A model generated the notes under the pieces. The model was given only the letters and a program-made list of their open reading frames with translations, was not told the DNA's origin and made no database searches. 37,087 bases of DNA from assembly GCA_003167275.1 (NCBI GenBank), contig PMTT01000888.1, positions 882-37,968 on the forward strand, written 5' to 3'. This DNA is from Bryobacterales bacterium (GTDB lineage: Bacteria > Acidobacteriota > Terriglobia > Bryobacterales > Bryobacteraceae). The position numbers were made by a program, and so were the translations under genes. Positions 796 to 37,087 of the stretch are shown one piece after another; positions within the stretch are counted from its first letter, which is position 1; each line of letters begins with the position of its first letter.

Positions 796-920
796 GGTGG
801 GGCAGCCAATCCTGGCTGCGGACGGCTTCCAGCCGGCCCTTGCCGCGCGATGATTCGCCCTGAAAGAGCCTTGCGGGGCAGGATTCACATCCTGCTACGC
901 CGGTTGAAAGCCGGCCGACG
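796..920. repeat. Cluster of hairpin elements (two double-hairpin units)
   Basis: GCAGCCA-atcc-TGGCTGC (802-819) followed by GGCT-tcc-AGCC (824-834); GCAGGAT-tcac-ATCCTGC (878-895) followed by GCCGG-ttgaaag-CCGGC (899-915). Confidence 0.75.
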
Positions 921-1602: not shown

Positions 1603-1780
1603 CGCGCCCCGATTCCGCCGCGACGGCGTCCGGACCCCAGCCCGAGGGCGCCCTTGCCGGACCCTCCAGGCGGCCCCGAAGTGGCAGGTGGCCGGGCAGG
1701 CCTAAGCCTGCTGCCTTTCAGCAACAACAAGTATAACGTAGGGTGTGGTTGAAAATGCTTCTACCGCCTGCCCTCGGGTG

Positions 1781-1901
1781 TGGTGTGACAGGCGCTTCAG
1801 CCTGTCTTCGCCCGCTTGCGGGCGATTCTTTTAAAAGCCTCCTCAGCCTCCTTAGCCGCCGCAGTTTTGAGGCCCGGGTGGTGCAGGCGGTGCTCGCCTG
1901 C
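1781..1901. repeat. Hairpin-element cluster upstream of the Sel1 gene
   Basis: GACAGGC-gcttca-GCCTGTC (1787-1806), CGCCCGC-tt-GCGGGCG (1809-1824), GCAGGCG-gtgct-CGCCTGC (1883-1901). Confidence 0.75.
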
Positions 1902-7426: not shown

Positions 7427-8080
7427 ATGAGCGGGATCGTAGAGAGCAATCTGGACGCAGCGAACGCCGTCTACCGCGCCGTCATTCCGGCGGGCGAGCC
7501 GTGGGTCCGCGAAGTCCGCAAGGGGCAGTACTTCCGGATCGTCGATCTCGGCGGCAACCAGGCTGTCGACACGCTGTTCTACAACGCGCACGACTATTCC
7601 GACCGTTTCAGCGCGCAGGACACCATTCGCGAACAGCGGAATATCTACCTCACTACGGGCACGCGCCTGATGTCCAACGGAGGCACGGCCCTGCTCACCA
7701 TCGTTGCCGATACCTGCGGACGCCACGACACGCTGGGCGGCGCCTGCGCCAACGAAAGCAATATGGTCCGCTACGCCATCGAGAAGCGGCACATGCACGC
7801 CTGCCGCAGCAGTTTCCTAAAGGCCGTCACCGAATGGAACCAGGGCATGACCAAGCGTGACATCACCAGCAACATCAACTTCTTCATGAATGTCCCGGTG
7901 ACGCCGGAGGGCAAGCTCACTTTCGAGGACGGAATCTCCGAACCCGGCAAATACGTCGAGATGCGCGCCGAAACGGACGTGCTGGCCATGATCAGCAACT
8001 GCCCGCAGCTCAATAATCCCTGCAACGGGTACGATCCCACCCCGGTCGAGGTGTTGATCTGGGACGGGCCGGGAAACTGA
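7427..8080 (+). CDS. DUF1989 urea carboxylase-associated protein 2 (candidate carboxyguanidine deiminase subunit)
   Basis: '[92 protein letters not shown]'; stop abuts the carboxylase start at 8080. Confidence 0.87.
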
Positions 8081-11000
8081 TGTTCCGCAAGGTCCTGGTC
8101 GCCAATCGAGGCGTTATCGCAGTTCGGATTATCCGCACGCTGCGGCGTATGGGAGTCGGTTCGGTGGCTGTCTACTCGGAGGCGGACCGGCATTCCCTGC
8201 ATGTGGAGCGCGCCGATGAGGCGGTCCTGATTGGCCCTGCGGCAGCGGCCGAGAGCTATCTCTCGGTTGAGCGATTGCTGGAGGCAGCGCGAAAAACAGG
8301 GGCGGAAGCGATCCATCCGGGCTACGGATTTCTGAGCGAGAACGCCGGTTTCGCCGAGGCCTGCGCGGATCGCGGTATCGTCTTCATCGGGCCGTCTCCT
8401 GACCAGATGCGGGCGTTTGGTTTGAAGCACACGGCGCGGCGGATCGCGGGCGAGAACGGAGTGCCGGTGTTGCCGGGCACGCCGCTTCTGGGGTCGCTGG
8501 CCGAGGCGCTGTCGGCCGCCGCACGGATCGGCTACCCTGTGATGCTCAAGAGCACCGCGGGGGGCGGCGGGATCGGCATGCGATCGTGCGACCGCGCGGC
8601 GGAGCTGACGGAATCGTATGCCGCCGTCCAGCGCTTGAGCCAATCCAGTTTCGGCACCGGCGGGATGTATCTGGAGAAATTCGTGGCTCGCGCGCGGCAC
8701 ATCGAGGTACAGATCTTCGGAGACGGCGCGGGCGCCGTGGTCGCGCTGGGGGAGCGCGATTGCTCGGCGCAGCGGCGCAATCAGAAGGTCATTGAGGAGA
8801 CGCCCGCCCCCGGCATCGACGAGGCCACTCGCGCGCGGCTTCTGGACGCCGCGGTGCGGTTGGGCGAGGGCGTGAACTATCGATCCGCCGGCACGGTGGA
8901 ATTCATCTACGACGCCGATACGTCGCAGTTCTACTTCCTGGAAGTGAACACGCGGCTGCAAGTGGAGCACGGAGTCACCGAGGAAGTCACAGGCGTCGAT
9001 CTGGTGGAGTGGATGGTGCGCCTGGCGGCGGGGGATAGACTTTGTAGCGCCGGCGCTACAGGCTGCTCCCTCCAGGTCCGCATCTACGCCGAGGACCCCG
9101 CCAAGAACTTCCAGCCGAGCGCCGGCAAACTTTCGCAAGTGTCCTGGCCGGCACGGGCGCGCGTGGAGACCTGGGTGGAGTCGGGCACGGAGGTCACCCC
9201 GTACTACGACCCGATGCTCGCCAAGATCATCGTGCGCGGCGTCGACCGCGCCGCGGCGCTCGCGGCAATGCGCGCGGCACTGGCGGAGTGCCGCATCGCC
9301 GGCATTGAGACCAACCTGGAGTACTTGCGCCAGGTCTGTGCCGACCCGGCCTTCGAAGCTGGTGGCATCACCACTTCGTTTCTCCGCGCCTTCGATTACC
9401 GGCGCCATGCCGTCGAGGTGCTTGACCCCGGCACGCAGACCACGATTCAGGATTATCCCGGCCGCGTGGGCTACTGGCACGTCGGCGTTCCCCCCTCCGG
9501 TCCGATGGACGCCCTGTCCTTTCGCGTGGGCAACCGCCTGGTGGGAAACGCCGAGGAGGCAGCCGGGCTGGAGATCACGGTGACGGGCCCCGCGCTGCGG
9601 TTCGGCTGCGATGCCACGATCGCGCTCACCGGCGCGGATTTCGGAGCGCGGCTGGACGGCGTGGCACTCGCTCCCTGGCAGGCCGTCGAGGTGAAGGCCG
9701 GTTCGGTCCTGGAACTGGGTTCGGCGCAGGGACCCGGCAGCCGCGCGTATCTGGCGATCGCCGGAGGATTCGACGTGCCGGTGTATCTGGGCAGCCGGAG
9801 CACATTCATCCTAGGCAAATTCGGCGGCCATGCCGGACGAGTGCTCCGGGCAGGCGACGTGGTGCACTTGCTCCCCCGTGGCGCGGGCACTCGTGCCTGC
9901 CGCATCGACTCCCCTGGTGGGACAGGCGGTTTCGCCTGTCCTCCCGCCTGTATGAGGCCCACGCCAACAGAACAGTACCAAACCCACACAGGCCAGAATG
10001 CCCATGTCACAGCGTGGGAAATCGGCGTCCTCTACGGCCCGCACGGTGCGCCCGATTTCTTCACCGCCGCGGACATCCAGACCTTCTTCTCCAACCCGTG
10101 GAAAGTCCACCACAATTCGGACCGCACCGGCGTCCGCCTCATCGGGCCCAAACCGGAGTGGGCGCGCAAAGACGGAGGCGAAGCCGGCCTGCACCCATCG
10201 AACATTCACGACAACGCCTATGCCGTCGGCACCATCGATTTCACGGGCGATATGCCAGTGATCCTGGGTCCCGATGGCCCCAGTCTGGGCGGGTTCGTCT
10301 GCCCGGCCACGATAGTCCAGGCCGAGCTCTGGAAGATCGGCCAACTGAAGCCGGGCGACCTGGTTCGCTTCCGCGCCATTTCCCTGGAACAGGCGCGCGA
10401 AATGGAAAGGCTCCTCGACGACTATGTGCGGACGCTGGACGGACGGCCACCGGGTTTGCCACCGGTGCCGGTTCGCGAGGAGCCGATATTGCGGAGCACC
10501 CCCCAATTGCTGGGCAAGCTAAAGCATACCCTACGGGTTTGCCGGGCCGATGGCGATCGCTACCTGCTGGTCGAATACGGGCCCAACGTCCTCGATCTGA
10601 ACCTCCGCTTCCGTGTCCACGCGCTCGAAAGCCAACTGCGCGGCGCGGCACTTCCGGGCATCCTCGACATCACGCCCGGAGTCCGCTCCCTGCACATCCA
10701 TTACGATGGCAGACTCCTGGCGCGCGAGTCCCTGCTCGAAGCACTGGACGCCTGCGAGCAGCGCATCCCGGATCTCGACGATCTGGTGGTGCCCTCGCGC
10801 ATCGTCCATTTGCCGCTCTCCTGGGACGATCCGGCCACCCAGTTGGCCATTCGCAAATACATGCAGGGGGTCAGGCCCGACGCGCCCTGGTGCCCTAGCA
10901 ACATCGAGTTCATCCGCCGCATCAACGGCCTGGAATCCGTCGATGCTGTCCGCCGTATCGTGTTCGGCGCGAACTACCTGGTGCTAGGCCTGGGCGACGT

Positions 11001-11763
11001 CTACCTGGGCGCGCCGGTGGCCACGCCGACCGATCCGCGCCACCGCATGGTCACCACCAAGTACAATCCGGCGCGCACCTGGACTCCCGAAAACGCCGTG
11101 GGGATTGGAGGCGCCTACCTCTGCGTCTACGGCATGGAAGGGCCGGGCGGATACCAGTTCGTGGGCCGCACCGTCCAGATGTGGAACACCTGGCGCGCCA
11201 CGCGCGAGTTTGAACCCGGTACGCCGTGGCTTCTCCGCTTCTTCGACCAGATCCGGTTTGAGCCGGTCTCCGCCGCCGAACTGCTGGAGATCCGCGACCA
11301 GTTCCCGCATGGGCGCTATCCGCTACGCATCGAGCACCAGGATTTCCGCCTGAAGGACTACCACGCCTTCCTGGCCTCCACCGCAACAGAGGCCGCGGAA
11401 TGCAAGCGCCGCCAGCAGGAAGCCTTCGATGCGGAGCGCGAGCGCTGGGCTCGCGCCGGCGCGGACAAGGTCTTCGAAGCGCCCGACGAAAGCGCCGACC
11501 CAGGTGGCGTCCGCGCAGAAGAGATGCCCGAGGGTTGCCGGTCCGTCTGCTCCCCGGTCACCGCAAGCGTCTGGAACATCGCGGTGGAAACCGGCCAACG
11601 TGTGGAAGCCGGGCAGAAACTGGTGGTCCTGGAAGCCATGAAGATGGAGATTGCCGTGGCATCTCCCGCCGCCGGGACTATCGAGCGGCTGAATTGCATC
11701 GCCGGCGCGTTGGTGATGGCCGGGCAGCACCTGGTCACGCTGCGCCAGGAGGTGAGAACATGA
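8080..11763 (+). CDS. Biotin-dependent urea/guanidine carboxylase (biotin carboxylase - AHS2/AHS1 - biotinyl domains)
   Basis: N-terminal '[24 protein letters not shown]', ATP-grasp, '[31 protein letters not shown]'; '[37 protein letters not shown]' (AHS2); '[23 protein letters not shown]' (AHS1); '[11 protein letters not shown]' biotin-attachment motif. Confidence 0.92.
9043..9060. repeat. 18-bp perfect palindrome inside the carboxylase CDS
   Basis: TGTAGCGCCGGCGCTACA; encodes part of '[14 protein letters not shown]'. Confidence 0.7.
9878..9950. repeat. Hairpin elements lying in frame within the carboxylase CDS
   Basis: GTGGCGCGGGCACTCGTGCCTGCCGCATCGACTC (9878-9911) then GGTGGGACAGGCG-gttt-CGCCTGTC (9916-9940); both match intergenic copies elsewhere in the window. 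Confidence 0.8.
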
Positions 11764-13541
11764 CGTCGGATCTCGCGCTGGACCTGGCATCTTTGCGCGC
11801 ACTCTATCAATCGCGGTCGGCCAAGCCCACCGACGTGGTGGCGGCGGTCTACGACCGGATCGGCAGCGGCCCTCTGGCCCCCGTTTGGATCTCCCTGGTG
11901 CCGCGCAAATACGCCATGGCCCAGGCGCGCGAACTGGAGAACGACCCGCTGGCGGCCGCCCGTCCGCTCTACGGCGTCCCGTTCGCCATCAAGGACAACC
12001 TCGACCTGGCCGGCCTCGCGACCACCGCGGGATGCCCCGCCTACGCCTATCAACCGTCCCGCAGCGCGACCGTCGTACAATCGCTGGTCGATGCCGGAGC
12101 GATCCCCATCGGCAAGACCAATCTCGATCAATTCGCCACCGGCCTGGTGGGCACCCGGACACCGCACGGGGCCTGCTCCAGCGTCTTCGACCAGCGGTAC
12201 ATCTCGGGCGGATCCAGTGCGGGCTCGGCCGTGGCAGTCGCCAAGGGGTTGGCCAGTTTTGCGCTGGGCAGCGACACGGCCGGGTCGGGCCGAGTCCCGG
12301 CGGCCTTCAACAACCTGGTAGGTCTGAAGCCCTCGCGCGGCCTGTTGAGCACCCTGGGACTGGTGCCCGCATGTCGGACCTTAGACTGTGTTTCCATCCT
12401 GGCGGCGACCTGTCATGACGCCTGGACCGTGTGGGACTCCGCCCGTGGATTCGATGCCGCCGACCCGTTTTCCCGCGTCCCGTCGTCCGGCCAGTCCGCC
12501 GCGCCCTGGGCCAGCGGGACCTTCCGATTCGGCGTCCCGGCGGCCGACCAGCTTCAGTTCTTTGGCGATGACGAGGCCGCCGCCCTGTATGAAAAGGCGG
12601 TGGCGGCGCTGGAGGGCGTAGGCGGGCAGAAGGTGGAGATCGATTTCGCGGTCTTCCGCGCCGCCGCCGACCTGCTCTATTCCGGCCCGTGGGTGGCTGA
12701 GCGCCTGGCGGCGATCCGCCCATTCCTCGAACAGCATGCCGACCAGATGGACCCGGTGGTGCGCGAGATCATCTCCGGCGCACGCCGCTATACCGCGGTG
12801 GACGCATTCGAGGCCGAATACCGCCTGCGGGAGTTGCGCCGCGCCACCGAATCGCAATGGGAGCGCATGGACGTCCTGGTGCTCCCCACCACCGGAACCA
12901 TTTACACGCACGAAGCCTTGGCCGCCGAGCCTTTCAAACTGAATACCAATCTGGGCTACTACACCAACTTCGTGAACCTGCTGGACCTTGCCGCGGTGGC
13001 GGCGCCCGCCGGTTTTCGTGCCAACGGTTTGCCCTTTGGCGTATCGTTTATCGGCCCGGCGTTCAGCGATGAAGCCCTGCTGGCGGTGGCCGACCGGTAC
13101 CATCGCACGTGGGCCCAACTGCCCGGCCCGGCCATCGACCTGGGGGCGTGCCCTCCAGGCTGCATCGCGGTGGCGGTGGTGGGCGCGCACCTGAAGGGGC
13201 AGCCCTTAAATCGCCAGCTCACGGAGCGCGGAGCGCGCCTGATCAAATCGTGCCGCACCGCGCGCGGCTATCGTCTGTACGCGCTGGATCGGACCATGCC
13301 TCCGAAACCCGGCCTGGTGCGCGACGATAGTTTCGACGGGAAAGGCATCGAGGTGGAGGTGTGGGCGGTGCCCGAAGATCGCTTCGGCGGATTCGTCGCG
13401 GACGTGCCGCCGCCGCTCGGAATCGGGAACGCCACTCTGGATAGCGGCGAGACGGTGAAGTGCTTCATCTGCGAGCCCTATGCGATTCGGGGCGCCACCG
13501 AAATCACCCACTTCGGCGGCTGGCGGAACTATTTGAAGTGA
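11760..13541 (+). CDS. Allophanate hydrolase (amidase-signature domain plus C-terminal domain)
   Basis: ATG at 11760 overlaps the carboxylase stop (ATGA). '[24 protein letters not shown]', '[64 protein letters not shown]'; C-terminal '[37 protein letters not shown]'. Confidence 0.93.
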
Positions 13542-15760: not shown

Positions 15761-15932
15761 GTGGCGCGGACACTCGTGTCTGCCGCGTCGAGACTCGTCT
15801 CGACGCATTTCGCGCCCGGCCCGAAATGCCACGAAGAGCAACGGGATTGCTTTCCCTTGCAGCGTAGATGACGTGCTGCGCCAACTGCGTCGAGACGAGT
15901 CTCGACGCGGCAGACACGAGTGTCCGCGCCAC
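15761..15932. repeat. 172-bp unit bounded by a perfect 46-bp inverted repeat (MITE-like)
   Basis: 15761-15806 gtggcgcggacactcgtgtctgccgcgtcgagactcgtctcgacgc is the exact reverse complement of 15887-15932. Each arm contains GACAC-tc-GTGTC and GCGTCGAGAC-tc-GTCTCGACGC. Confidence 0.92.
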
Positions 15933-26459: not shown

Positions 26460-27947
26460 CTACTTCACCAGCGTCGCCGACTTGACGGCGAAGTCCAGCA
26501 CCCAATTGGGGAAGATGCCGAGGAACAGTGTGCCAATTGCCGGAATCATCAGGGCGGTTCCCAGGCCCAGGGAAAGAGGCTCCACTTCGGAGCTGGCTTT
26601 GCTGGGCTCGTGCATGTACATCATCACCAGGATTCGCAGGTAGTAGTATGCCGCCACCGCGCTAGTAAGCAATCCCAGGACGGTGAGCCACACCAGGTGC
26701 GACTCCAGCGCCGCCTTGAAGATGTAGAACTTGCCAAAGAATCCCCCGGTGAGCGGCACGCCGATCAACGAGAGCATGAAAATCGTGAGCAGGGCCGCGG
26801 TGAGCGGCTGTTTCTGCGCCAGTCCCGCGAAATCGTCCACAGTCTGATACCGCTCACCCTTCCCGGAAAGATGGCTCACCACCGCGAATGCCCCGACGTT
26901 CATGAAGGCGTAGGCGGCCAGGTAAAACATGGCGGCCGAAGTGCCGATTTCCGAGCGCGCCGTGAGCGCCACCATCACGTAGCCGGCATGCGCGATCGAG
27001 CTATAGGCCAACATGCGTTTGACGTTGGATTGCAGAAGCGCCGCGAAATTCCCGATGACCATGGAGAGCAGCGCGGAGATCCCGAACAGCCACGGTTGCC
27101 AGGAGGCCGACATCGGCTCGAAGGCGGTCATGAAGATCCGCAGGAACACGGCGAAGGCCGCGGCCTTAGGACCGGCCGAGAGGAAGGCTGCGACGGGGGT
27201 GGGCGCTCCCTGGTAAACATCCGGCGCCCAGATCTGGAAGGGGGAGGCGGAAACCTTGAAGGCCAGCCCGACGAACATCAGCGCCGCCGCCAGGCCAATG
27301 AAAACGGACGAGGGAACATCCGGCCCCATCAGGATGCCGCGGACCGTGCTCAGATTGATGCTTCCGGTGGCGCCGTAGATGAGGGCTACGCCGTACAGGA
27401 AAAAAGCTGTCGCAAACGAGCCTAGCAGGAAGTACTTTAAGGCGGCCTCATTGGCGCGCTTATCGTCGCGCAGATAGCCGGCCATCACGTAACTGGCGAT
27501 GGAGGAAATCTCGATGCCGATGAACACCATGATCAGGTCGTTCGAAGCCGCCATCAGGCATTGCCCGGCGATGGAGAACAGCAGCAGTGCGTGATACTCG
27601 CTGGTCTCGGCATCTTCGCGCTGGAGGAAACGGTAGGAGGAGAGCACCGTCAGGATGCCGACCACGATCACCAACACCCGGAAAAAGGTGGCGAAACCAT
27701 CCACCATCAACATGCCGCCGAAGGCCGGGCAGGACTGCGGGACCGAGCAGCCTCCCTCGGTGTACGCATACACCGAGCCACCCAGCGCGCCGACGAGGGC
27801 CAGCAGGCTCAAGTGGCCGAAAGCGTAGGACGAGCGCCGCTGCAGGATGGGGTCCATCACCATCAGGAAAGTGCCCATGATGGTCAGGATGATCTCGGGC
27901 AGGAAGCGGATGAGGTCGGGCGTGCTCACGAAGGAATTAACGAGCAT
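26460..27947 (-). CDS. nuoN: NADH-quinone oxidoreductase subunit N
   Basis: Multi-pass protein with 'LFSIAGQCLMAASNDLIMVFIGIEISSIASYVMAGYLRDDKRANEAALKYFLLGSFATAFFLYGVALIYGATG', in nuo order; start at M6 of the ORF. Confidence 0.95.
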   Translation of the reverse strand: MLVNSFVSTPDLIRFLPEIILTIMGTFLMVMDPILQRRSSYAFGHLSLLALVGALGGSVYAYTEGGCSVPQSCPAFGGMLMVDGFATFFRVLVIVVGILTVLSSYRFLQREDAETSEYHALLLFSIAGQCLMAASNDLIMVFIGIEISSIASYVMAGYLRDDKRANEAALKYFLLGSFATAFFLYGVALIYGATGSINLSTVRGILMGPDVPSSVFIGLAAALMFVGLAFKVSASPFQIWAPDVYQGAPTPVAAFLSAGPKAAAFAVFLRIFMTAFEPMSASWQPWLFGISALLSMVIGNFAALLQSNVKRMLAYSSIAHAGYVMVALTARSEIGTSAAMFYLAAYAFMNVGAFAVVSHLSGKGERYQTVDDFAGLAQKQPLTAALLTIFMLSLIGVPLTGGFFGKFYIFKAALESHLVWLTVLGLLTSAVAAYYYLRILVMMYMHEPSKASSEVEPLSLGLGTALMIPAIGTLFLGIFPNWVLDFAVKSATLVK

Positions 27948-29546
27948 TGGCGGCCTCCGCAAGCACGGAAAGGTGGGGCGGACGCCCTCGTCCGCGCGCG
28001 ACCCCCTGGTCGTGCTCTTCTTGGCCGACGGGCGGCGCTGCTTGCACGCGGGTGGTGACGTTGATCTTGCTCTGCTCCAGCACGAGCGCGCTCACCTTGC
28101 TGACCGGCGGCAGGAAGCTTTGGGAGTACACGCCCATCCACACCATCATGGCGATCAGCGGAATCACGGCCGCCCATTCGCGCGGGTTGAGGTCGGGAAT
28201 GTGCGACCGGACCTCGTGGCCGGCCTCACCGTAGAACACGCGCTGGTACATCCACAGCATGTAGCAGGCTGAAAGAATCACGCCGATGGACGCGTAGATG
28301 GTCCACTGGTAATGCTCCATCGCCGTGCCCTGAAGCACCAGGAATTCGCCCACGAAGTTGTTCAGGAGGGGCAGGCCGATGCTCGCCAGGGTGGTGATGA
28401 GGAAGGCGGTGGAGAGCCACGGGGCCACCGTAGCGACTCCGCCGAAATCGTCGATGGCCAGTGAATGGCGCCGCTCATACAGCAATCCGACGATCGCGAA
28501 GAGCGCGCCGGTCGAGATGCCATGGTTGAGCATCTGGTAGACCGCTCCATCCAGACCCATCTGGCTGAACGAGAAAATCCCCAGGACGACAAAGCCGAGG
28601 TGGCTGACCGAAGAATACGCCACCAGTTTCTTCATATTGGGCTGCACCATCGCCACCAGCGCGCCATAGATGATCCCGATGATCGCCAGCACGGCGATCC
28701 AGGGGGCGCAACTGTGGGCGGCCCGGGGGAATAGCGGCAGGCAGAAATGATAGATTCCGTAGGTGCCCATCTTCAGCATCACGGAGGCCAGCATGATGGA
28801 GCCGGCGGTGGGCGCTTCCACGTGCGCATCGGGCAGCCAGGTATGCAGCGGGAAGAGCGGGACCTTGATGGCGAACGCCACGAAGAATGCCAGGAAGAGC
28901 AGCATCTGCTCGCCCGAAGTGAACGACAGATCGCCGCGGGAGAGCATGTCCAGGATCTTGGGGTAGCTGAATGTGTGGGCCTGATTGTAGAGGTAGATAA
29001 TTGCCGTCAGCATCAGCACCGAACCGGCCATGGTGTACAGGAAGAACTTGACGGCGGCGTAGATCCGGCGGTCGTGGCCCCAGATGCCGATCAGGAAATA
29101 CATGGGTACCAGGGAGACTTCCCAAAACACGTAAAACAGGAACAGGTCCTGCGCCAGAAACACGCCGATCAAACCGAACTCGAGCAGCAGCAGGAAGGCG
29201 TAGAACTCTTTCGCGCGGTTCTGGATCGAGCGCCAGGAGACCAGCACGCAAAGCGGGGTCAGGAAGGCGGTGAGCACGATCAGCCACAAACTGACGCCGT
29301 TCACGGAAGTTGCGAAGTGGATATCAGGTGATGTGATCCAGGGGATGTCGATGGAGAACTGCTCGCCGCCTTGTCCCCGGTCGAACTGCGCCACCAGCAT
29401 CAGCGCATCCAAAAAGGCCAGCAGAGACATCGTCAACGCCAGTGCCCGGCTGTTCTCGGGCCGCCGCCTTGGGACGCAAAGCGCGGCAAGAAAGCCGATC
29501 AACGGCACGACTAGGACGGAAAGCATCCGGACTGAGGTAGCCGAGT

Positions 29547-29550
<4 letters not shown>
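27937..29550 (-). CDS. nuoM: NADH-quinone oxidoreductase subunit M
   Basis: 'FLIGIWGHDRRIYAAVKFFLYTMAGSVLMLTAIIYLYNQ', 'KVPLFPLHTWLPDAHVEAPTAGSIMLASVMLKMGTYGIYHFCLPLFP'; operon position. Confidence 0.95.
27972..28012. repeat. Double-hairpin element in the 3' end of nuoM
   Basis: GGTGGGGCGGACG-ccct-CGTCCGC (lead plus stem, 27972-27995) followed by GACC-ccct-GGTC; same lead as copies at 796 and 9914. Confidence 0.7.
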
Positions 29551-31394
<1,844 letters not shown>

Positions 31395-31403
31395 CAGGTT
31401 TTC

Positions 31404-31712
31404 TTAGTTCTTCATCGAATCGATTTCATCGATATTCAAAGTCGCCCGGTTCTTGAAAACCGTCAGGATAATCGCCAACCCCACGGCCGCTTCGGCCGCC
31501 GCGACCACCATGACGAAGAACGCCAGCAGGTGCCCGTCGACCTTCTGGAGCTTGTACGAAAACGTGATAAAGCTCAGGTTCACGGCGTTCAGCATCAGCT
31601 CGATGGACATGAACACCGTGATGATATTGCGCCGGAACAGGAAGCCGGCCACGCCCAGGGCGAACAGGATCGCGCTCAGCGTCAAAAACCACGAAATAGG
31701 AATCTCGGACAT
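31404..31712 (-). CDS. nuoK: NADH-quinone oxidoreductase subunit K
   Basis: 102 aa: 'FLFRRNIITVFMSIELMLNAVNLSFITFSYKLQKVDGHLLAFFVMVVAAAEAAVGLAIILTVFKNR'. Confidence 0.95.
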   Translation of the reverse strand: MSEIPISWFLTLSAILFALGVAGFLFRRNIITVFMSIELMLNAVNLSFITFSYKLQKVDGHLLAFFVMVVAAAEAAVGLAIILTVFKNRATLNIDEIDSMKN

Positions 31713-35611: not shown

Positions 35612-35663
35612 GTAGACCGGCGCCTCTTGCTAAACCAAAGTACCTGCATCCCCGGGCATTCAT

Positions 35664-35855
35664 TTCAACGCCGAGGCGCCAAGACGCAGAGGAGAAAACG
35701 GGACCTCGGCGAACTCTGCCATCTCTGCGCCCTAACCCCGGCTCGGAACCACGGCTGTTGCTGAATCCTACTTCCATATGGGCCGCAGAGGAAGCCGAGA
35801 GCGCAGAGCAAAGCAAGACTCTCTCTTCTCCGCGTCTCTGCGCCTCGGCGGTGAA
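35664..35855. repeat. Imperfect inverted repeat in the nuoG-nuoF gap
   Basis: 35664-35696 ttcaacgccgaggcgccaagacgcagaggagaa versus the reverse complement of 35826-35855, ttcaccgccgaggcgcagagacgcggagaa. Confidence 0.6.
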
Positions 35856-35863
35856 AATGTTCT

Positions 35864-37087
35864 TCATGCCATCACCATATGCGTGGCATGCTCGTACGGA
35901 CACGGCTTGCCGTTCAGGTGGTCTTCGAACTCGCTCCGGAACTTCTCCACAATCGAAATGGTCGGCATGGCGGCCGCGTCACCCAGCGGGCAGAACGTAC
36001 GCCCCAGCATGTTCTTCGAGATGTCGCCGATCAAGTTGATGTCGGTGCGCGTCCCGTAACCATCGTGGAAGCGCTGCAGGATCTTGCGAAGCCACGTGGT
36101 GCCCTCGCGGCACGGAATGCACCAGCCGCAGCTTTCATGCGCGTAAAACCGCATGATCCGCAGCGCGGCCTTCACCATGCAGGTGTCTTCGTCCATGATG
36201 ATCACGCCACCCGACCCCAGCATGGTCTTCCGCTGGGCCATGGAGTCGTAATCCATGTTGGCGCCTTCGAGTTCGGCCGCCGTCAGCACCGGGCAGGACG
36301 ATCCGCCCGGAATGAAGGCTTTCAGTTTCTTTCCGTTGCGAATGCCGCCGCCCACCTCTTCGATCATCTGCTTCACCGGGAAGCCGATCCGCAATTCGTA
36401 GACACCCGGTTTATTCACGTGGCCCGTGAGGCAGGTCATCTTCGTCCCGCCGGACTTCGGTATGCCCAGGTCTGCAAAGGCCTTCCCACCGTCCAGGATG
36501 ATCGACGGCACTGCGCAAAACGTCTCTACATTGTTCAATATCGTGGGGCACTGGAATGCGCCCGAGACCGCCGGAAACGGCGGCCGGATGCGCGGAATCC
36601 CCCGCTTGCCCTCCAGCGATTCCAGCAGCGCCGATTCCTCGCCGCATTCGTAAGCGCCCGCGCCGGTGTGGGTGTAAAGATCGAAATCGAACCCGGTGCC
36701 CTGAATGTTCTTCCCCAGCCAGCCATTGGTATAGGCTTCAGCGATCGCCTTGTCCATGATGTCGATCAGGTAGCGATACTCGCCGCGAATGTAGATGTAG
36801 CCTTTGTGGGCATCTACCGCCAGCCCCCCGATCAGGCAGCCTTCGATCAACTGGTGCGGGTCGTTCTCGATCAGGACACGGTCCTTGCAGGTGCCCGGCT
36901 CGCTCTCATCGCCGTTGACGACGATGTATTTCGGCTTGGGCGAGGTTCGCGGCACGAAACTCCACTTCATTCCCGTAGGGAAGCCCGCCCCGCCGCGACC
37001 GCGGAGATTGGAGACCTTCACCTCATCGATGATCTGTTCCTGCGTCATGCCGGCGGCCTTCTTGAAAGCCTTGTAGCCGTCAGTCGC
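35864..37087 (-). CDS. nuoF: NADH-quinone oxidoreductase subunit F (5' end outside window)
   Basis: 'SNLRGRGGAGFPTGMKWSFVP', 'YIVVNGDESEPGTCKDRVLIENDPHQLIEG', 'ESCGWCIPCREGTTWLRKIL'; the frame continues upstream as '...TDGYKAFKKAAGMTQ'. Confidence 0.95.
   Translation of the reverse strand, partial: ATDGYKAFKKAAGMTQEQIIDEVKVSNLRGRGGAGFPTGMKWSFVPRTSPKPKYIVVNGDESEPGTCKDRVLIENDPHQLIEGCLIGGLAVDAHKGYIYIRGEYRYLIDIMDKAIAEAYTNGWLGKNIQGTGFDFDLYTHTGAGAYECGEESALLESLEGKRGIPRIRPPFPAVSGAFQCPTILNNVETFCAVPSIILDGGKAFADLGIPKSGGTKMTCLTGHVNKPGVYELRIGFPVKQMIEEVGGGIRNGKKLKAFIPGGSSCPVLTAAELEGANMDYDSMAQRKTMLGSGGVIIMDEDTCMVKAALRIMRFYAHESCGWCIPCREGTTWLRKILQRFHDGYGTRTDINLIGDISKNMLGRTFCPLGDAAAMPTISIVEKFRSEFEDHLNGKPCPYEHATHMVMA

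Follow-up and report, generated by a model that had tools for sequence, protein, structure and literature searches.

Tagged hairpin repeats in a large acidobacterial genome are most likely REP elements spread by RAYT transposases

The stretch of DNA analyzed here (37,087 nt, referred to below as the window) carries short G+C-rich hairpins that share a leading motif and differ in their stems. What are these units, how did they come to be repeated, and why do the two arms of a stem differ together from copy to copy? The evidence presented below makes it very likely that they are REP elements, occurring singly or as REPINs and belonging to several families within one large acidobacterial genome, with each family mobilized, now or once, in trans by its own RAYT (TnpA-REP, a Y1 HuH transposase).

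Results

The window contains about nine units of one plan

The common plan consists of a GTGG tag, usually one further base, a G+C-rich hairpin of ~18 nt (H1) and, in most cases, a second hairpin (H2). About nine units of this plan are spread across the window. Both units that the initial annotation described at 796 to 920 are present with the stems it gave, and the recurrences it placed near 1787, 9878 to 9940, 15761, 15887, and 27972 are real:

797-819, plus strand: unit 1, tag GTGG (797-800) and H1 GCAGCCA(atcc)TGGCTGC (802-819), of the GCAGCCA-atcc-TGGCTGC family
823-835, plus strand: H2 of unit 1, CGGCT(tcc)AGCCG
873-895, plus strand: unit 2, decayed tag GCGG (873-876) and H1 GCAGGAT(tcac)ATCCTGC (878-895)
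899-915, plus strand: H2 of unit 2, GCCGGTT(gaa)AGCCGGC, with one G-T pair
1780-1825, plus strand: unit with a decayed tag, H1 GACAGGC-gcttca-GCCTGTC, H2 TCGCCCGC-tt-GCGGGCGA
1878-1901, plus strand: degenerate single-hairpin unit, GTGGTGCAGGCG-gtgct-CGCCTGC, not among the sites first listed
9878-9901, plus strand: unit GTGGCGCGGGCAC-tc-GTGCCTGC, in frame within a urea carboxylase gene
9917-9940, plus strand: unit GTGGGACAGGCG-gttt-CGCCTGTC, in frame within the urea carboxylase gene
15761-15806, plus strand: left arm of a REPIN, GTGGC, H1 GCGGACAC-tc-GTGTCTGC, H2 GCGTCGAGAC-tc-GTCTCGACGC
15887-15932, minus strand: inverted right arm, partner of 15761-15806
27973-28015, plus strand: GTGGG, H1 GCGGACG-ccct-CGTCCGC, H2 GCGCGACC-ccct-GGTCGTGC, overlapping the 3' end of a nuoM-like gene

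Several of these units have relatives elsewhere. The 23-mer made up of the tag and H1 of unit 1 is repeated many times in the host genome, relatives of unit 2 with an intact GTGG tag are found at L022:3628 and L062:5351, and whole two-hairpin relatives of the unit at 1780 to 1825 are dispersed in a sister genome (G001).

Some genes at or near the units have features of their own. In the urea carboxylase open reading frame (ORF; 8080 to 11763), the units at 9878 to 9940 fall in a loop with ~14 extra residues relative to the solved structure 3va7, and the equivalent place in G001 has a different sequence. The unit at 27973 to 28015 appears to supply part of the predicted C terminus of the nuoM-like gene product (27937 to 29550, minus strand). 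For the gene upstream of the type locus (~600 to 790), homology to G001 reaches a stop at 788 and the called ORF ends at 690, possibly reflecting a frameshift or an assembly error.

Copies exceed chance in the window and across the genome

The window has 7 instances of GTRG followed by a stem of 7 bp or longer; 100 dinucleotide shuffles gave 0.53 on average and never more than 3. Over ~1 Mb of the host genome, part of which was picked for containing elements, the lead GTGGGGC is followed by a fully paired 7-bp stem in a fixed register at 86 of its 307 occurrences, while control leads of similar composition precede a paired stem in ~0 to 2% of cases. An unselected scan showed GTGG to be 5.6-fold enriched directly before hairpins. 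Genome-wide counts rest on exact patterns, the covariance model (CM) having scored 106 candidates per genome: GTGGGGCAGN10CTGC has 112 matches and GTGGGGCGGACCN4GGTCCGC has 223 exact copies, and neither pattern occurs when reversed. The initial annotation's observation of a recurring hairpin family is confirmed. The strict form of the element was found 18 times in 230 kb of unselected contigs (~78 per Mb), which extrapolates to an estimated ~900 strict copies in the 11.5-Mb genome.

These properties are those of REP elements: a GT[AG]G tag lies 0 to 2 nt before a G+C-rich hairpin, and the copies are numerous, dispersed, and, as judged with a rough gene caller, mainly extragenic. REP elements are also expected to consist of a single hairpin of ~20 to 40 nt. 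Most units here carry a second one (under a lenient rule, H2 is present in 116 of 149 strict copies in the ~1-Mb sample), so we classify them as a variant of the REP element.

H1 defines families, and neighboring units form inverted pairs

Within each family, the stem and loop of H1 are nearly fixed together. The families include GCAGCCA-atcc (22 sampled copies of GCAGCCA-atcc-TGGCTGC), GCGGACC-ccct (12 of GCGGACC-ccct-GGTCCGC), GCAGGCA-atct (7 of GCAGGCA-atct-TGCCTGC), GCAGGTT-gtc, GACAGGCG-gttt, GCGGACAC-tc, ACAGGCA-ttct, and others. The stems seen in the window thus come mostly from different families, each of them nearly fixed, and the contrast with classical REPs that had been drawn from their variability is not supported: to each family belong an H1 that hardly varies and a separate RAYT clade.

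Inverted, head-to-head REPs separated by a short spacer, the arrangement of REPINs or BIMEs, are common, as at 15761 to 15932 (172 bp), and single units occur as well. Among neighboring elements within 260 bp of each other at the collected loci, 26 of 34 pairs are inverted (+/-). In several of these, the arms span 120 to 125 bp end to end, and REPINs overall measure ~120 to 190 bp. The REPIN of the GCGGACC family is ~124 bp long, and sequences matching a whole 124-bp REPIN occur at several locations in the sister genome.

Repeat types correspond to branches of the RAYT family

The initial annotation also suggested the involvement of a RAYT/TnpA_REP-type transposase, and such enzymes were found, flanked by elements with the same stem. 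Of 61 genomes searched with PF01797, 40 have Y1 transposases, the host among them. One RAYT clade, A1, is characterized in alignment by the motifs NHVH, FWQDESYDHxxR, and YIExNPV. The closest solved structure to the RAYTs is E. coli TnpA-REP (4er8), and alignment to it shows A1 to have the HuH and Y motifs as well as the W, Q, and R residues with which that enzyme reads the guide. All 16 RAYTs match Y1_Tnp and the NCBIfam REP transposase model NF047646 (best E value, 3.3e-24); the bit score available, for one member, is 62.7, below the model's curated cutoff of 80 bits.

Genes of clade A1 often have a plus-oriented element upstream and a minus-oriented element of the same stem type downstream. 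At genome-contig loci, 61 of 132 RAYT flanks have a GTRG hairpin no more than 300 bp from the gene, compared to 5 of 127 control windows, and unrelated tags show little such enrichment. At the 38 RAYT loci with elements on both flanks, left and right stems differ at a mean of 1.5 of 9 positions, compared to 4.27 after permutation, and none of 5,000 permutations gave a value as low (P < 1/5,000). Stem types also track the enzyme phylogeny. On a maximum-likelihood tree of 32 RAYTs, mostly from Bryobacterales, nine stem types (assigned manually according to the flanking elements, close variants being pooled) require 9 changes where the minimum is 8; the shuffled mean is 18.6, and 0 of 200 shuffles reached the observed value. 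Across all phyla, the correlation between RAYT and stem distances is weak (Mantel r = 0.17, P = 0.056). The RAYT clade and the element occur together in 17 of the 61 genomes, with the RAYT alone in 2, the element alone in 3, and neither in 39 (P = 3e-10, a value that overstates independence because the genomes are related). Three CM-positive genomes gave no strong match to the A1 clade. RAYTs of the HHVTQRG type in the same genomes are mostly unflanked by these elements. The data indicate that every type of repeat is matched by a distinct branch of the RAYT family.

Two RAYTs of the A1 clade are visible in the host, on contigs C427 and C39, and both genes contain assembly N gaps. The C427 gene is flanked by elements of the GCGGACG/GCGGACC type, which is that of the window unit at 27973, with that H1 lying 130 bp upstream. 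The C39 gene (L172), as judged by eye, is flanked by inverted, GTRG-tagged GGTATGCTttAGCTTGCC repeats, which have one T-T mismatch in the stem. RAYTs flanked by their cognate element are therefore found in relatives and, for the 27973 type, in the host itself; no cognate RAYT for the other window types is visible in the host assembly. For the unit types at 797 and 15761, the nearest RAYT-flanking matches are in relatives, at L114 and L231, respectively. The clade matching unit 1 (GCAGCCA) comprises L090, L106, and L114, and the H1 of the 15761 unit adjoins the RAYT in L231, with a close variant in L227.

The single clean PF01797 match in the host, a transposase on contig C223, was considered as a driver and dropped, being a RAYT of another type that adjoins a different, TTCGGTGGCAGCCACCGTAACCCC-type repeat. 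Repeats of that type lie just upstream of the gene (L021, 1302 to 1420), in L009, and elsewhere in the genome, and they apparently form a second, unrelated REP-like family.

H2 pairs are preserved while their sequence changes

The initial annotation held that both arms of a stem change together. This holds for H2 within an H1 family; differences in H1 lie mostly between families. In 68 copies picked on an exact H1 only (alignment A3), the eight pairs of H2 are 96.7% paired, compared to 69.9% in shuffled and 17 to 46% in slid controls, and double changes are present at seven of the eight pairs. We discounted the covariation in another alignment (A2) in favor of A3 because the rows of A2 had been selected for pairing. 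Among 22 distinct H2 stems whose inner seven pairs are intact, one-pair differences are two-sided 50 times and one-sided 4 times, in comparisons that share ancestry and so are not independent events. Eight of the 68 copies have private one-arm breaks in H2. We read this as fold-competent copies multiplying and decaying afterwards, with a possible contribution from template switching between arms. Two sources of stem covariation can be told apart, one between families, along with the enzyme, and one within a family, in H2, through shape or template switching.

Could all of the paired changes come from mutation alone, through template switching from one arm of a quasi-palindrome to the other, without the fold being selected? 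Two published accounts report that this process creates and maintains hairpins (PMC8794818, PMC8604942), and the 50-to-4 excess of two-sided differences speaks for it. It competes with the covariation part of our explanation only, and cannot account for amplification, for RAYTs flanked by same-stem elements, or for the match between stems and the RAYT tree. Although it may add to change in H2 and is to that extent a partial rival, we consider it rather unlikely as the whole cause of the paired changes.

Spread by RAYTs, small single-strand transposases, is most likely the copying process. The initial annotation had raised a copying mechanism, which these results support. E. coli TnpA-REP and others of its kind are known to bind and cleave REPs in single-stranded form (PMC8266576). 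We infer that the RAYT would bind the folded hairpin on single-stranded DNA, read the GT(A/G)G tag as a guide to the cleavage site, and cut and join strands so that a new copy arises at a short target that contains T. Spread would be confined to copies with folding stems, so that H1 would stay fixed within a family and differ between families along with the RAYT, while H2 would need only to pair and its sequence could drift. Tentatively, and with the odds somewhat against it, H2 may be a second module of the mobile unit whose shape is read by the RAYT or matters in a single-stranded intermediate, being obliged to pair and otherwise free in sequence. In several pairs of the GCGGACC family, the H2 of one arm is of the GGCCGAC type and that of its partner is GCGGGTCC, and such differing H2s on the arms of a REPIN may be end markers.

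Sister species carry elements at different sites

In G001, the orthologue of the gene adjoining the type locus is followed by a tRNA-like stretch, and the element is absent there. In a conserved intergenic gap (L063, 18966 to 19058; L198), the host carries a GTGGCACAGGCA REPIN and G001 a GTGGGGCAGGTC REPIN; different REPIN families in one gap suggest repeated use of the site or replacement. Where the window has ~7 bp between genes (31401 to 31408), a composite insertion of 200 bp in G001 includes a GTGG element. For the units at 9878 and 27973, a search of G001 for clean empty sites showed other, partly hairpin-like sequence at both orthologous positions.

The bases before the tag are also biased. 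A T stands at position -2 of the tag in 80 of 148 copies (54%), compared to 150 of 648 hairpin-less leads (23%), and the best families have CTG or CTT motifs there. E. coli TnpA-REP cleaves next to REPs at CT; in the case of a group 3 enzyme, changing GTAG to GTGG permits cleavage at CC (PMC8266576). The bases before the tag may reflect target preference.

We also considered whether the host maintains the hairpins as RNA or DNA structures (bidirectional terminators, mRNA-stabilizing hairpins, or gyrase sites), their mobility being incidental. REPs can terminate transcription or stabilize mRNA (PMC6006769); T-rich bases follow H2, and the elements are depleted in called ORFs (54 of 114 inside, where a rough caller assigns 85% as coding). 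However, convergent gene ends are not preferred (13 of 57, compared to 82 of 382 gaps), elements also occur in frame within a gene, their sites vary between sister species, individual copies decay through private one-arm mutations, and an Rfam scan of the window gave no match. Selection by the host is a very improbable explanation of the elements. Scarcely credible is a derivation from MITEs or from fragmentary ends of a conventional DD(E/D) insertion sequence, with the hairpins as terminal inverted repeats: the ~120-bp inverted pairs are of MITE-like size, but single units and direct pairs exist as well, the hairpins are local structures that carry a tag, and the enzyme found with them belongs to the Y1 HuH transposases, a RAYT linkage that disfavors this origin.

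Other repeats were also noted. Another repeat family (CGCCGAGGCGC.../...CTCTGCGCCTCGGCGG) lies at 35646 to 35864 of the window and has several copies in G001 (including L192, 6370 to 6570), once with a nested GTGG element. The segment of L063 at 13372 to 13465 has over 20 matches in G001, often where contigs end, and is probably a further mobile element at which the assembly breaks.

Discussion

We conclude that the tagged hairpins are very probably REP elements mobilized by RAYTs, which places a high-copy, multifamily REP/RAYT system in Bryobacterales-type Acidobacteriota. The system offers many natural pairs of RAYT and hairpin in which stem type and enzyme have diverged together. These pairs make it directly testable how RAYTs recognize and spread REPs.

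The components are already known: REPs, REPINs, GT[AG]G tags, REPtrons, and multiple families have all been described before (PMC3733652, PMC6006769, PMC8266576). Several REP families with different stems in one genome are classical, and GTGG tags are known in Opitutus terrae (PMC3733652). The GTAG REPs and REPtrons of that study resemble our units in having a tag before a palindrome of 6 to 9 bp, several stem families, inverted dimers, and flanking of the RAYT. Here, in contrast, GTGG is the usual tag, H2 follows H1, and the stem families go with separate RAYT clades. TnpA-REP subclass 2.4 (PMC6006769) shares NHVH, WQ, and YIxNP-type signatures, a resemblance of motifs only, and its REPs share the GT[AG]G foot, double-foot forms (compare L008), and in-frame insertions in genes; tandem double hairpins are not described in the sections of that work considered here.

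Two comparisons concern the same phylum. TIRYT genes of Acidobacteria (PMC3733652) are also Y1 transposases with inverted repeats, some doubly palindromic and recurring in the genome; by their description, those repeats are unrelated to GTAG REPs, which sets them apart from the GTRG tag and REP-like H1 found here. In Solibacter usitatus, a related host, the class 3 TnpA-Y1 structures (PMC6006769) include a hairpin family of ~600 copies tied to a Y1 protein, with a CnGA foot and class 3 enzymes where our system has GTRG and RAYTs of the YIExNPV type. At the loci sampled, related RAYTs in other phyla mostly accompany single-hairpin GTAG REPs, and two strong tandem hairpins are found almost only in Bryobacterales/Acidobacteriota. 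The two-hairpin GTGG form thus appears to be special to Bryobacterales-type Acidobacteriota.
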